This document shows, one piece after another, positions 7,907 to 17,030 of a stretch of DNA of 24,730 nucleotides. The notes below the pieces were generated by a model, which ran no database searches, was not told where the DNA came from, and saw only the letters and a list, made by a program, of their open reading frames with translations. Both the position numbers and the translations under genes were made by a program. Numbering within the stretch: position 1 is the first letter of the stretch; every line of letters begins with the position of its first letter. The stretch is taken from IMG/VR virus record IMGVR_UViG_3300028925_002282, positions 1 to 24,730 of that record. One strand, written 5' to 3'. Source of the stretch: a virus.

Positions 7907-8335
7907 ATGGCAATATTAAATGGAACGGACATAAAAGTCTATGATGGGAGTGGTTTGTTAGTAGCTTATGCACAAAACGGATCAATAAACATTAATCATT
8001 CAACAAGAGAAATCACGAACAAAGAATCAGCAGGATGGAAAGAAACTTTAGAGGGATTAAGGGATTGGAGTATTGATGTTGATGGTGCTTATGCATGGAC
8101 TGATGCAGCAGGATCAGTTTTAGCAAATGGATTTGAAGATGTAATTTCAGCTTACATTTTAACAAGAGCATCATTAACAGTTAAATTTGGAACAACAGCA
8201 GCGGCAACTGGGGATGTTTTATATACTGGAACGGCATGGGTTACTTCTGGGAGTGCTTCAGCAGGAACGGAAGATTCAGCAACTTATTCTCTATCTTTAG
8301 AGGGTACTGGTGCATTAACTCAGACTGTATCTTAA
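7907..8335 (+). CDS. major tail (tube) protein, TP901-1 type
   Basis: The 142-residue protein is rich in Thr, Ala, Gly and Ser with alternating beta patterns and aligns by eye with the TP901-1-type tail-tube family. It has an N terminus MAILNGTDIKVYDGSGLLVAYAQNGS, then REITNKESAGWKETLEGLRDWSIDVDGAY. A late segment, DSATYSLSLEGTG, closes the barrel. These subunits stack as rings around the tape measure. A strong 11-bp hairpin follows its stop codon, mirroring the capsid gene, and the next genes are the tail chaperone and tape measure. Confidence 0.88.
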   Translation: MAILNGTDIKVYDGSGLLVAYAQNGSININHSTREITNKESAGWKETLEGLRDWSIDVDGAYAWTDAAGSVLANGFEDVISAYILTRASLTVKFGTTAAATGDVLYTGTAWVTSGSASAGTEDSATYSLSLEGTGALTQTVS

Positions 8336-8351
8336 TAATAATTTTTGGCGC

Positions 8352-8388
8352 GTGGGGGGTGATCTTGTTTGTGTGTTTCACCCCTCAC
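8352..8388 (+). terminator. strong hairpin after tail-tube gene, no U tract
   Basis: GTGGGGGGTGA (8352-8362) pairs with TCACCCCTCAC (8378-8388) over 11 bp with one G-U wobble and a 15-nt loop. It starts 16 nt after the tail-tube stop. Unlike the capsid hairpin it lacks a following T run, so it more likely protects the 3' end of processed tube mRNA or gives weak attenuation. True intrinsic termination is less likely. Confidence 0.55.
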
Positions 8389-8413
8389 AAACCAATTTAA
8401 ACAAACACATAAC

Positions 8414-8755
8414 ATGAAATATAATTTTGTAGAAATAGCAGAAAAAAAATATCCAATTAAATTTGGGTTCAATGCTTTAAGAAAGTATGGAATAAAAACA
8501 AACTCATCATTGGCTGATTTGGATAAGTTAGGCCAAGATATGAAATTGAATGATGCCTTAACTTTAATCCTTTGTGGGTTGGAAGATGGTTACAGGGCAG
8601 CAAAACAACAATGTGAGTTAGATATTGAAACACTTTCTGATTTGGTTGATGAAGATTTTAATGCAATTGAAAAATGCATGAATATTTTAGCCGAACAAAT
8701 GGGTGGAAATACTAAAAAAGAGGGAAAGGGCAAGGCCAGCAAGGCAAAACGCTAA
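8414..8755 (+). CDS. tail assembly chaperone, short form (gpG-like)
   Basis: This 113-residue form starts at ATG 8414 (MKYNFVEIAEKKYPIKFGFNALRKYG). An upstream in-frame TTG at 8369 lies in the hairpin loop and is rejected. Charged helices follow (LDIETLSDLVDEDFNAIEKCMNIL), with a Lys-rich tail ending KASKAKR. The position between the tube and tape-measure genes, the size and the frameshift site below identify it as the tail assembly chaperone, which coats the tape measure during tube assembly and is absent from finished virions. Confidence 0.82.
   Translation: MKYNFVEIAEKKYPIKFGFNALRKYGIKTNSSLADLDKLGQDMKLNDALTLILCGLEDGYRAAKQQCELDIETLSDLVDEDFNAIEKCMNILAEQMGGNTKKEGKGKASKAKR
8722..8728 (+). other. 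programmed -1 frameshift site G_GGA_AAG
   Basis: The heptamer GGGAAAG is in register in the chaperone frame (GGA at 8723-8725, AAG at 8726-8728), so simultaneous slippage by both tRNAs moves ribosomes into the -1 frame. That frame is open from here through 9072. It is the heptamer used by phage lambda for G/GT. A downstream stem is weak at best (GCCAG at 8736-8740 with TTGGC at 8757-8761), and lambda also lacks a strong one. The translated -1 frame before ATG 8791 (TLSWQDLERIAFGQ) looks protein-like and supports the fusion. Confidence 0.8.
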
Positions 8756-9072
8756 GTTGGCAAGATTTAGAAAGGATTGCATTTGGGCAAATGAACATGG
8801 AGGTTGATGTTTTTTATGATATGTTGCCCAAACATTTTTGGCTTAAAATGGATGGATTTAATGATTTGGAAAATTTAAGACAAAGGCAGGAATGGGAAAG
8901 GTGCAGATGGCAAACGGCATATTTACTGATGCCGCACACAGGAAAAGGAAAATCATTATCCCCAACAGATTTAATTAAATTTGAATGGGATAAAACAAAG
9001 TCAGAAGTTGATTTTGAGGAATTAAAAGCAAGGGCGGAATACATTAAAAAAATGGATAATTATGGGAAGTAA
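8728..9072 (+). CDS. tail assembly chaperone extension (gpT-like part of fusion)
   Basis: This is the -1 frame read after slippage at 8722-8728. The G-T fusion would run 8414 to 9072 and be about 219 residues, 105 from the first frame and 114 from this one. The extension includes LSWQDLERIAFGQ before the internal ATG 8791, then DVFYDMLPKHFWLKMDGF and RQRQEWERCRWQTAYLLMPHTGKGK. The pattern is that of the second chaperone domain in Gram-negative siphophages, and from memory Bacteroidota phages have the same tandem. Independent initiation at ATG 8791 is possible but would drop conserved residues. The stop overlaps the tape measure start by 11 nt. Confidence 0.75.
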   Translation, partial: GQGQQGKTLSWQDLERIAFGQMNMEVDVFYDMLPKHFWLKMDGFNDLENLRQRQEWERCRWQTAYLLMPHTGKGKSLSPTDLIKFEWDKTKSEVDFEELKARAEYIKKMDNYGK

Positions 9073-11593
9073 AGCAGTCGGTTTTTTAACATTTAATTTC
9101 GGTGCAAACATGGGTGGCTTTAATAAGGCCATGAAAAAAGCACAAAGGAAAGTAAGGAATTTCGGAAAGTCAATGAAACGTGTTGGGAGTTCCATGACTA
9201 CTGGATTGACAATGCCAATCATTGGGCTGGGTGCAATTGCAATAAAAACATTTGCAAATTTTGAACAGGCAATGCTTAAGGTAAAAGCCGTTTCAGGCGC
9301 AACCGCTTCAGAATTTAAATCATTAGAAGATAACGCAAAAAGATTAGGAAGTTCAACAATGTTTACCGCTTCACAAGTGGCTGGATTACAATTGGAATTA
9401 TCCAAGTTGGGATTAACACCAGAGGAAATAAACAAATCAACTGATTCAATATTAAGTTTAGCACAAGCAACAGGCCATGATTTGGCTGAAAGTGCAACAA
9501 TAGTTGCATCTACAATGAATAGTTTTGGAATGGAAGCAAGCGAATCGGCAAAAATTGCTGATATGTTTGCGGTTGCAAGTTCAAGCGCGGCCATTGATAT
9601 GACAAAATTGAGTGTTGCAATGCCAACTGTTGGGGCAACCGCAAATGCTGTTGGTGTTCCATTAGAGGGACTTACGGCTATGATGATGACATTGGCCGAT
9701 AGTGGAATGGAAGCATCCACAATGGGAACGCATTTGAGGAAAATATTTGTTGAGTTGGCAACAAAGGGGATCAGTTTTGATGATGCAATGAATCAAATAA
9801 ACACATCAACTGATAAAGTAACAACCGCAACAGGATTATTTGGAAAACGTGCATTTGGTGCTGGATTAATATTAGCAGGAAACACACAAAAAACGGCTGA
9901 ATATAATGTTGAATTAGCAAATGCCGCTGGGAAATCCAAGGAAATGGCCGACATTATGGATAGTGGTGCGGCTGGAGCAATGAGGCGTTTGGCATCACAA
10001 GCTGAGGGGGTTGCAATTTCATTGGGTGAAATGCTTATTCCTGTTTTTCAAAAACTTATGGGGCTTGTTCAGAAAGCATTGGGTTGGTGGAGTGGATTGA
10101 GTAGTGAAATGAAAAACAACATTGTTACAGTCGGGTTAATTGTTGCAGCAATTGGGCCAGTTATATCAATTTTGGGAGGGTTAGCAACAGCATTTGCATT
10201 AATTTTAAGTCCCATTGGATTAGTGGTTGCAGCAGCAGTTGCGGCAGGGATTTTGATTTACAAAAACTGGGAGCCAATTAAAAAAGCATTAGTTTCAGTA
10301 ATTAATTATTTTATTGACTTATACAATGAATCAATGTTATTTAGGGGTGCAATCCAGTTGATAATTATGGTGTTTAAAAACTTATGGGCGCAAGCTAAAT
10401 TTACCTTTAATTCAATGAAAGGGATTGTCACAAATTTGATCGCAACATGGATTGGTCAATTTAAGGCAATTGCAAAAGTAATTTCATCAGCATTAAGTAT
10501 AGATCCACAAGGGGTAAAAGAGGGAGCTAAAGATTGGGTGAAAGCAACATCAGATGGAATAAAGGGAAGTGCAAAAGTTTTACAAAAAACATCTAAGGAG
10601 TTAGGGGATGAGATGGCAGAAAATTTAAAAACAGCAATTGATAATACATTAACAAAGGAAAAAGTTGAATACATTACTGAAGATGATATTCAGGGGGCGG
10701 TTGATAGTGCTGCCGACATGGCCAAAGGAATTTATAACAAGATAAAAGGAGTTTTTGCAGTTGGAAGCGGTGGAAGCGGTGGAAGCGGTGGAAGTGAGGG
10801 GGATGAGGATGCACCAATAGAGGGACATTTTGAAATTGATGAAACTTATGAAGAAATGTTGGCCCGCACCAAGGAAACAACAAAAAGTTTAAAGGATATT
10901 TGGGGTGATTTTTGGGATGATTGGGGTGAGGGTATTCAAAAAGCGATAGGTATTGCCCAAAAAGCAATGGCAGGTATTGGCAATTTTGTGAGTGCAGTTG
11001 CTAAAAAAGAAACAACAGAGTTGGCAAACGAAAAAGCATTACAGCAGGAATTGCATGATGCTGATTATGAAAAACAGTTGGCAAGGATTGAAAATGGAAT
11101 GATGAGTGAGGAAGCCAAGCAGATTGCAATTGATGAATTAAACACTACATTTGCAGCTAAAAAAGAAACAATGGATAAGGCAATGGCAGAAAAGGAAAAG
11201 GCCATGAAACAAAAACAAGCAAGGAGGGACAAAGCAATGGCAATAATGAATGCAATTATCAATGGAGTTTCTGCCGTTGTTGCCTCATTGCCGAATATTC
11301 CATTGTCAATTTTTGTTGGTGGTTTAGCCGCTGCAAGTGTTGCGACAATAGCATCAACACCGATCCCAGCATTTGCAGATGGTGGAATAATTAGTGGCCC
11401 AACTGTTGGTTTAATGGGTGAATATCCTGGCGCAGGAACAGGAAATCCAGAGGTTGTTGCCCCATTAAAGAAACTTCAGGGAATGATGGGTGGGAATGAA
11501 AATAATAAAATTCAAATTGTTGGGAAATTATCAGGAAATGATATATATTTATCCAACTCAAAACAAACAACTGATAGATTAAGATTCGTTTAA
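9062..11593 (+). CDS. tail tape measure protein (TP901 family)
   Basis: The 843-residue protein sets tail length; at the usual 0.15 nm per residue the tail would be about 125 nm. The N-terminal core matches the TP901 tape measure family (FEQAMLKVKAVSGATASEFKSL, then SQVAGLQLELSKLGL and TKLSVAMPTVGATANAVGVPLEGLTAMMMTLADSG). A long hydrophobic stretch at about residues 350-400 would insert into the host membrane on ejection. A Gly/Ser linker at about 568-579 divides the protein. The tail of the protein has charged coiled coils, a second hydrophobic segment, and FADGGIISGPTVGLMGE, a common motif at tape-measure C termini. It starts within the chaperone gene. Confidence 0.93.
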   Translation: MGSKAVGFLTFNFGANMGGFNKAMKKAQRKVRNFGKSMKRVGSSMTTGLTMPIIGLGAIAIKTFANFEQAMLKVKAVSGATASEFKSLEDNAKRLGSSTMFTASQVAGLQLELSKLGLTPEEINKSTDSILSLAQATGHDLAESATIVASTMNSFGMEASESAKIADMFAVASSSAAIDMTKLSVAMPTVGATANAVGVPLEGLTAMMMTLADSGMEASTMGTHLRKIFVELATKGISFDDAMNQINTSTDKVTTATGLFGKRAFGAGLILAGNTQKTAEYNVELANAAGKSKEMADIMDSGAAGAMRRLASQAEGVAISLGEMLIPVFQKLMGLVQKALGWWSGLSSEMKNNIVTVGLIVAAIGPVISILGGLATAFALILSPIGLVVAAAVAAGILIYKNWEPIKKALVSVINYFIDLYNESMLFRGAIQLIIMVFKNLWAQAKFTFNSMKGIVTNLIATWIGQFKAIAKVISSALSIDPQGVKEGAKDWVKATSDGIKGSAKVLQKTSKELGDEMAENLKTAIDNTLTKEKVEYITEDDIQGAVDSAADMAKGIYNKIKGVFAVGSGGSGGSGGSEGDEDAPIEGHFEIDETYEEMLARTKETTKSLKDIWGDFWDDWGEGIQKAIGIAQKAMAGIGNFVSAVAKKETTELANEKALQQELHDADYEKQLARIENGMMSEEAKQIAIDELNTTFAAKKETMDKAMAEKEKAMKQKQARRDKAMAIMNAIINGVSAVVASLPNIPLSIFVGGLAAASVATIASTPIPAFADGGIISGPTVGLMGEYPGAGTGNPEVVAPLKKLQGMMGGNENNKIQIVGKLSGNDIYLSNSKQTTDRLRFV
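10763..10798 (+). repeat. 9-bp tandem repeat GGAAGCGGT encoding a Gly/Ser linker
   Basis: GGAAGCGGT occurs three times in perfect tandem (10763-10789) and a fourth, diverged copy (GGAAGTGAG) follows. It codes for a flexible GSGGSGGSGGSE stretch within the tape measure protein. Perfect copies suggest recent expansion by slippage. Copy number may vary among relatives, with small effects on tail length. Confidence 0.8.
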
Positions 11594-15800: not shown

Positions 15801-17030
15801 ATGGAAAACACACACTTGAAGTACAAAGATGAAATAAACGATCTTTGGGAGATAGGGCATGGATATACTCAAATTGCTATAATAATTAACGAGAGGCACA
15901 ATCTGGGCCTATCAACTGATTATTTTAGGAAGAAAATAAAAACCATTATAAAATACACTTTAGCCGATAAAGAGATTGTTGAATACAATGTAAGGCTATC
16001 AAAGCAAAAACAAAAGGCACAGGATCAAAGCCGAATTGCAAACAAATCATTCAGAGAGCATGCACGTTTGGAAAATTCATTAACGGCATACAATGAGGAA
16101 ATCATTAAGGTATTAAAAGAAAATTCATTGGAAACAGAATTTCCAAAAATTGAAATGGTTGGGAATGGTGCAATGGTTGTGCAAATTGCTGATACACATT
16201 TTAATGAGTTGGTTGATTTGGATCACAATAAATATGATTTTGAAGTTGCTGCAAAGAGGTTGCAAAAATTTGCATACTACACAAAAAAATATGCTGAATT
16301 GCATGGTGTTAAAAATATACTTATTGCCATAACTGGGGATTTAATAAATTCTGATAGGCGATTGGATGAAAAATTAAGCATGGCAACAAACAGGGCAAAG
16401 GCCACATTTTTGGGTGTTCATTTAATTAAACATTTCATTTTGGATTTAAGCAAGGTTGCAACAATAAGTGTTGCATGTGTTACAGGGAATGAATCCAGGG
16501 TGAATGAGGAATTGGGATGGGTTGATTTGGTTGCTTCAGATAATTACGATTTCACAATTTTTGAAATGTTAAGGTTATTATTGCCAAAAATAAATTTCAT
16601 TAGGGGAAACGCATTGGAATTAGTTGTTGAGGTTGCAGGGCAAAATGTGTTGCTTATTCATGGGCATCAGCTGGGCAAAATGGATAGCAATAGAATTGCA
16701 AAGGTAGTGGCGAAATATAGCCGTAAAGGGGTGCAAATACACTTCATTATCTGTGGCCACTTACATGAAACCATGATAACGGATTTATTTGCAAGGAGTT
16801 CATCATTAGTTGGTGCAAATGCTTATTCAGAAAACGCATTAAATTTAAGTTCAAGAGCCGCACAAAATATTTACATAATGAAAAAAGATGGTAGGCACGA
16901 TATAAGAATTGATTTACAGGAAACAAAAGGGTTTAAAGGTTATAAGATTGATAAGGAATTATTCAGTTATAATGCAAAAAGTTTAAATAAAACTATGCAA
17001 AACCATACGATTTTCAAAATAATTATATAG
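15801..17030 (+). CDS. calcineurin-like metallophosphoesterase with N-terminal HTH-like segment
   Basis: The 409-residue protein has an N-terminal segment (residues 10-50, LWEIGHGYTQIAIIINERH) that reads like a helix-turn-helix. A coiled-coil linker and a calcineurin-like catalytic domain follow. Metal-binding motifs are present in order: DTH (131-133), GD (179-180), GN (229-230), HGH (287-289) and GHLH (319-322). In the third motif the usual GNHD/E is GNES, so the catalytic His is missing or replaced. It may act on phosphodiester or nucleotide bonds, possibly on DNA. It is the last gene before the terminator at 17067, which places it in the late transcription unit. The substrate is unknown. 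Confidence 0.75.
   Translation: MENTHLKYKDEINDLWEIGHGYTQIAIIINERHNLGLSTDYFRKKIKTIIKYTLADKEIVEYNVRLSKQKQKAQDQSRIANKSFREHARLENSLTAYNEEIIKVLKENSLETEFPKIEMVGNGAMVVQIADTHFNELVDLDHNKYDFEVAAKRLQKFAYYTKKYAELHGVKNILIAITGDLINSDRRLDEKLSMATNRAKATFLGVHLIKHFILDLSKVATISVACVTGNESRVNEELGWVDLVASDNYDFTIFEMLRLLLPKINFIRGNALELVVEVAGQNVLLIHGHQLGKMDSNRIAKVVAKYSRKGVQIHFIICGHLHETMITDLFARSSSLVGANAYSENALNLSSRAAQNIYIMKKDGRHDIRIDLQETKGFKGYKIDKELFSYNAKSLNKTMQNHTIFKIII

Follow-up and report, generated by a model that had tools for sequence, protein, structure and literature searches.

A phage known from a 24,730-base IMG/VR virus record, here called the window, very probably produces one of its tail-helper proteins in an extended form as well, by means of a −1 slip at a slippery heptamer. 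Our leading explanation, which we hold with high confidence, is that the site is the programmed −1 ribosomal frameshift signal of a tail-assembly-chaperone pair, and comparison among relatives strongly supports a −1 frameshift of known kind accompanied by a conserved hairpin. We infer frameshifting because the relation of the two frames, the class of the heptamer, the spacer and the stem are all conserved among relatives of the window. Judging from these relatives, the letters of the heptamer are interchangeable, whereas its class, the 6-nt spacer and the hairpin are conserved. The hairpin, which was absent from the original prediction, is the main feature of the signal. Most ribosomes would read G through to its stop codon, and those that slip back one nucleotide at the heptamer, possibly stimulated by the hairpin, would yield a G-T fusion as the rarer product. 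By analogy with lambda, for which PMC5009743 sets out such a model, the tape-measure protein would be the binding partner of G, and recruiting the tail-tube protein would fall to the rarer fusion.

The genes of the window for terminase, portal, capsid, connector, tail tube, G, T and tape measure follow the order of long-tailed phages, and the G/T pair sits between the tail-tube (PF06199, from 7907) and tape-measure (PF10145, from 9062) genes (Table 1). G begins with the ATG at 8414 and ends with the TAA at 8753–8755. Read from the window sequence, its codons around the heptamer are GAG GGA AAG GGC, which places G_GGA_AAG in register as originally claimed. The −1 frame has a TAA at 8713–8715, opens at 8716 and stays open to 9069, with its stop at 9070–9072; these limits agree with those given earlier. 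Its first ATG, at 8791, is preceded by LSWQDLERIAFG, which bears out the claim that residues are encoded before any ATG in that frame. The predicted fusion comprises 105 plus 114 residues and thus has the expected length of about 219 amino acids, with EGKGQGQQGKTLSWQ as the stretch across the predicted junction. The sequence gives ...KKEGKGQGQQGKTLSWQ... as the expected junction peptide, and the 'KGGQ' of the original prediction has to be replaced accordingly.

Table 1. Positions of the G/T junction elements and neighbouring genes in the window.
Feature	Position	Strand	Remark
Major tail (tube) protein	7907..8335	+	Pfam PF06199 E 4.8e-13; PHROG 1407; expected upstream neighbour
G-like tail assembly chaperone ORF, 113 aa, 0 frame	8414..8755	+	PHROG 2115 'tail protein' E 4.3e-6
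T-like reading frame, −1 relative to G	8716..9072	+	PHROG 16333 (unknown function) E 3.2e-37
Slippery heptamer G_GGA_AAG	8722..8728	+	in register
6-nt spacer	8729..8734	+	stem start fixed at 6 nt in 164/180 sampled junctions
Conserved stem, 5' arm GCCAGC	8735..8740	+	covariation, 65 unique segments
Inner 3-bp helix, 8743–8745 with 8751–8753	8743..8753	+	MFE fold only
Conserved stem, 3' arm GTTGGC, includes Trp codon of T	8756..8761	+	
Tape-measure protein	9062..11593	+	Pfam PF10145 E 5.8e-29; PHROG 1533; expected downstream neighbour

The predicted fold of G (pLDDT 80) has the HK97 tail assembly chaperone 2ob9 as its top structural match, a weak one with Z 4.1 and rmsd 4.0 over 80 residues in a second-look alignment whose next row has Z 3.4; Foldseek alone returned nothing at E≤0.001. 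Structure prediction was poor for T (pLDDT 66.7, pTM 0.37). In the phage collection G found no match at E≤1, and the best matches of T had E values of 0.2–6. No known Rfam family came near its gathering score within 8300–9200. Elsewhere in the window, positions 15801–17030 encode a phosphoesterase-like protein whose closest named matches, at about 43% identity, are in the marine Synechococcus phages S-CRES3 and S-CBS2; these differ from the closest named matches of the window's structural genes.

Relatives were taken from protein-based scans of viral contigs, one match among genome contigs (L188), one deposited phage record (L026) and the window itself. Together they amount to at least 329 sequences that contain G as well as T, and merging identical junctions left 180 distinct ones, among which partial copies of one junction may count separately; the differing heptamer-to-stem segments number 97. 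Since each alignment scan supplied its best 80, the relatives are a sample of the nearer ones. Two further records, L025 and L027, contain only a recognisable T.

T lies in the −1 frame of G and overlaps its 3' end in all 180 distinct sampled junctions, and in 177 of them a canonical heptamer (A_AAA_AAG, G_GGA_AAG or A_AAA_AAA) stands in register within the overlap. Together with the gene order, these two counts uphold the predicted −1 programmed frameshift in the pair as the probable reading. Either A_AAA_AAG or G_GGA_AAG stands in register among the final 20 codons of G in 168/180 junctions, as compared with 33.1 expected from codon shuffling. The family stem accompanies A_AAA_AAG in 146 of the 180 junctions and G_GGA_AAG in 18; in L014 and L277, G_GGA_AAG is followed by a stem at spacer 5. 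Eight junctions have A_AAA_AAA and no stem, L331 has A_AAA_AAA with another stem, L026 has A_AAA_AAA with a spurious one, and L265 has two heptamers but not the family stem. The family stem is thus missing from eleven mostly distant junctions, namely ten with A_AAA_AAA (L026 included) and L265. Lysine is encoded by AAG in the second codon of the heptamer in 166/177 cases, as against 3472 AAA and 947 AAG elsewhere in G and T.

The open overlap is devoid of a canonical heptamer in L275, L308 and L329. In L275 (around 1470–1500), A_AAA_AAG and a near-matching stem are followed by a TAA in the −1 frame ahead of T, so that this junction is either a naturally broken copy or the result of an error in sequencing. 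L308, L314 and L329 are distant relatives with T at −1 whose overlap is without a canonical heptamer and which have a run of five Gs close by; another slip site may be used there. In L011–L013 both A_AAA_AAG and G_GGA_AAG are in register, but only the latter is located 6 nt from the stem. The stop codon of G directly follows the heptamer in these three rows, and it lies in the hairpin loop in the other 162/165.

The T frame behaves as coding sequence. No ATG, GTG or TTG is present between the upstream stop of the T frame and the conserved Trp codon in 160/165 rows. In the ten codons after this Trp (104 unique segments), synonymous single-base differences outnumber nonsynonymous ones in the T frame by 15559 to 6036, whereas the other two frames give synonymous:nonsynonymous ratios of 2550:19522 and 1144:21672; the entropies at the three codon positions are 0.74, 0.44 and 1.38. 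T is, as far as these patterns tell, probably read from the shift.

The window's stem pairs 8735–8740 with 8756–8761 and begins exactly 6 nt past the heptamer. When a stem was defined as 6 bp with at least 3 G-C pairs, 165/177 junctions had one at spacer 6, and 164 remain after removal of L026, whose stem is spurious (30-nt loop, different letters). Spacer 5 yielded 32 stems and spacer 7 yielded 51, and 30 of the former and all 51 of the latter are the spacer-6 helix with its start taken a pair too early or too late; all other spacers from 0 to 24 gave 0–9 stems, and random positions in both genes 8/2760. The initial set comprised 113 distinct junctions, and in 111 of these one heptamer, and no more than one, was followed exactly 6 nt on by a 6-bp stem with the Trp codon of T in its 3' arm (L014 and L023 being the exceptions). 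Excerpts of PMC7618472 give 5–9 nt after the heptamer as the range for a stem-loop; the family falls within it, with a spacer of 6 in 164/180 junctions and of 5 in two.

Across 65 unique segments the pairs are, from the outside in, GC59/CG6, then invariant CG, CG and AU, then AU60/GC4/GU1 and GC49/CG15/CC1. Compensatory double changes thus occur at three of the six pairs, and the other three are invariant. The sole G.U pair belongs to the window and the only C-C to L014, whose stem is shifted by one base. In the same segments 99.7% of the cells are paired, 25 cells are double-changed as compared with 4.6 in shuffles, and the covariation score is 0.218, whereas shuffles give 0.052 and sliding the stem gives no more than 0.028. 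None of 500 shuffles matched the percentage paired, the double-changed cells or the score, and 47/500 matched the pair and pair-type counts; related sequences can beat shuffles without structure, both arms of the stem code for protein, and the tests rest on a stem first noticed in these same sequences. Applied to the alignment, RNAalifold returned this stem alone. The three varying pairs require 4, 4 and 2 changes on a tree of 165 rows. Independent contrasts on supported branches include 3, 3 and 1 in which pairing was kept by a two-sided change, one that was one-sided (the window's G.U) and none in the opposite direction; because such contrasts are too few, no single stem pair reached significance in the tree-based sign test. 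From arm to arm the window's hairpin has −11.6 kcal/mol (family median −10.2), and its folding is modest, with a z of −1.67 over 62 nt and 15/200 shuffles folding at least as well.

The codon that precedes Trp in T follows the 5' arm. Where the arm has C, this codon is AGT or AGC in 14/16 unique segments, the others being GGT and the ACC of the mispaired L014; where it has G, ACT occurs 58 times, TCT 22 times and ACC once (n=81 unique segments). Serine is therefore written as AGY or TCT depending on the partner base. It is this tracking, along with the compensatory changes at three pairs and the spacer fixed at 6, that speaks against the view that the frameshift is genuine but the hairpin an idle by-product of coding in two frames. 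Such a by-product would fit with three pairs that never vary and with a 3' arm that contains the Trp codon TGG, and in lambda and TP901-1 the heptamer does occur with no stem of this sort behind it. On balance we consider an idle hairpin improbable, yet of the alternatives considered here it is the least improbable.

Alternatively, T might be a product of its own: once G has terminated, ribosomes would reinitiate inside the T frame, at ATG 8791 or a comparable start, no frameshift would be involved, and a hairpin at the stop codon would tune the coupling. The first ATG is indeed found 11 or 13 codons past Trp in 152/165 rows, a possible start lies only 3 codons past Trp in 33/165 if GTG and TTG are counted, and the stop codon of G is within the hairpin loop in 162/165. 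However, the conserved beginning of T, LxWxxLExxAFG, precedes that ATG and evolves as T-frame coding sequence; five of the 165 rows are without an ATG within 60 codons of Trp, each having a TTG; and reinitiation gives the heptamer no reason to stay in register to the extent observed (168/180 versus 33.1). We therefore judge reinitiation very unlikely. Still less credit is due to transcriptional slippage at a run of As, which could draw on the six As at 8714–8719 just upstream of the window's heptamer and on the six As that the family's common heptamer, A_AAA_AAG, contains. Only 4/19 G_GGA_AAG rows have such a run within 25 nt upstream, the other 15 having at most five As, and it is the heptamer, not an A-run, that fixes the position of the stem.

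Comparison with the lambda record showed that the window's heptamer is identical to that of lambda, as had been noticed. On the 165-row tree, which omits L026 and L277 and from which no direction of change from a root was derived, G_GGA_AAG forms three clades of 12, 6 and 1 rows, corresponding to at least three changes of state between A_AAA_AAG and G_GGA_AAG; a 112-row tree has 2 heptamer changes. Deep retention of the lambda heptamer was rejected on account of these at least three changes. Of the two possibilities offered originally, deep conservation or independent origin, the second is thus retained, and because the heptamer state is so labile the match with lambda is convergence on one of few shift-prone heptamers inside a conserved two-part signal. 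In a family that has switched its heptamer at least three times, the view that the letters shared with lambda are the informative point finds no support. Absence of the heptamer from close relatives that retain both ORFs had been named as a point that would weigh against the prediction: all 12 members of the window's clade have G_GGA_AAG, whereas most farther relatives are without it and carry an equivalent heptamer instead. Published reports place G_GGA_AAG also in TP901-1 (PMC4493119) and in the haloarchaeal virus HCTV-5 (PMC5009743). What started as 'the same seven letters as lambda' thereby turns into a testable rule, with interchangeable slippery letters and a spacer and hairpin that are held, and the natural heptamer swaps lend themselves to measuring what sets the chaperone ratio.

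Two pattern scans with fixed letters were run, one for the A_AAA_AAG form and one for the G_GGA_AAG form. Among the matches listed for the A_AAA_AAG form, 116/120 were at a G/T junction (one with G cut off); the DNA pattern in its commonest form thus finds the junction without protein homology. Of the matches to the G_GGA_AAG form, 14/28 were at a G/T junction. Nine of the remaining 14 lie outside the membrane-protein pair described next, and among these nine L463, L468, L474, L481 and L483 share one exact match to this form away from the G/T junction.

Five others of the 28 matches belong to contigs in which the pattern of the window's clade, G_GGA_AAG-N6-GCCAAC...GTTGGC, is located in an unrelated small membrane-protein gene (L456:8246-8470; L457:4334-4558, minus strand; L466:12954-13115; L473:5894-6130, minus strand; L482:1428-1649, minus strand). 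The membrane-protein ORF ends 31 nt after the start of the heptamer, and a conserved −1 frame continues for 74–79 amino acids, with L466 cut by the contig end. That the stem is shared by these five is a consequence of their selection by the pattern, an explanation that does not extend to the conservation of the −1 frame. The membrane-protein pair had no Pfam or PHROG match below E 0.05, and we call the protein putatively holin-like on the basis of its hydrophobic stretches. An M15 peptidase/endolysin-like gene lies near the pair in L482. It is tempting to speculate, though we lean slightly against it, that a heptamer, a 6-nt spacer and a short stem around the 0-frame stop constitute a recoding cassette reached more than once, and that a −1 shift in these five contigs would add a tail of 74–79 residues to the holin-like protein.

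The host is likely, but not proven, to belong to the Bacteroidota, in line with the original assignment. No Shine-Dalgarno-like 4-mer precedes 28/30 hand-picked gene starts of the window, whose G+C content is 33.8%, and a scarcity of Shine-Dalgarno leaders is typical of Bacteroidota. The genome collection yielded a single relative, L188, on a contig assigned to a Flavobacteriales MAG; this contig may represent a free phage binned with that MAG. A T query against genome contigs gave no match, and a search of 296 genomes of the MAG's phylum recovered that MAG only. The tblastn matches of terminase and portal were all below 60% identity, the largest groups being phages of Lactococcus, Streptococcus, Staphylococcus, Vibrio, Mycobacterium and Microbacterium; named phages therefore do not place the host. 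The family occurs in many environmental contigs, and its probable host phylum hardly uses Shine-Dalgarno leaders, as is also seen in the window.

Frameshifting of tail chaperones to −1 is ordinary in kind and a known trick of tailed phages. Its occurrence in phages of Bacteroidota was not described in the titles and abstract openings surveyed, which is a weak negative, nor in the excerpted passages of PMC5009743, PMC10885494, PMC3711429, PMC7618472, PMC4493119, PMC4615864, PMC8008677, PMC10367356, PMC10569736, PMC10627814 and PMC7886860. In Bacteroides phage F4 (L026) and in two phage scaffolds from human faeces, T lies at −1 and an in-register A_AAA_AAA precedes the stop of G, to which L486 adds an A_AAA_AAG; F4 differs from the window by the lack of the family stem. 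The Bacteroides phages F2 and Bacuni_F1 have matches to the T of F4. The F4 pair is annotated as hypothetical proteins and the pair of the two scaffolds is unannotated; annotators can now join two such ORFs listed as separate hypothetical proteins. In Cellulophaga phage phi39:1 (L025, about 2440–2530), gp19 and gp20 resemble a G/T pair, with T placed in frame +1 or −2 and a run of eight As ahead of the stop of G. The −1 relation is therefore not universal further out. A tail gene of a Lactobacillus phage reportedly employs a pseudoknot. Some −1 events in bacteria make use of pseudoknots, according to PMC5009743.

E. coli dnaX resembles the family in combining a heptamer with a downstream stem-loop, and the dnaX heptamer A_AAA_AAG (excerpts of PMC5009743) is that of 146/180 junctions. 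It is a different gene, and the window family is without sign of the upstream Shine-Dalgarno stimulator. GGAGG is present within 22 nt upstream in 46/165 rows, and such a stimulator was rejected because GGA is not in excess as first Gly codon of the MGG motif (44/106, as compared with 490/1075 Gly codons elsewhere in G). At the same codon GGG is in excess (31/106 versus 122/1075).

Another close counterpart is lambda G/GT, which has the same order of tail tube, G, T and tape measure and the identical heptamer near the end of G. To our knowledge, no stimulator has been described for the lambda site. Excerpts of PMC7618472 name this site as G_GGA_AAG, and its −1 use is described in those of PMC5009743. 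In gpG/gpGT of the Lactococcus phage TP901-1, the heptamer is likewise GGGAAAG and its distance to the stop is 31 nt, as in the window; by contrast, there is no comparable stem, and the host is a member of the Bacillota. In the stem test, for which lambda and TP901-1 were the two comparators, lambda had no stem of at least 6 bp with at least 3 G-C pairs 0–14 nt past the heptamer, whereas such a stem stands 6 nt away in the family of the window.
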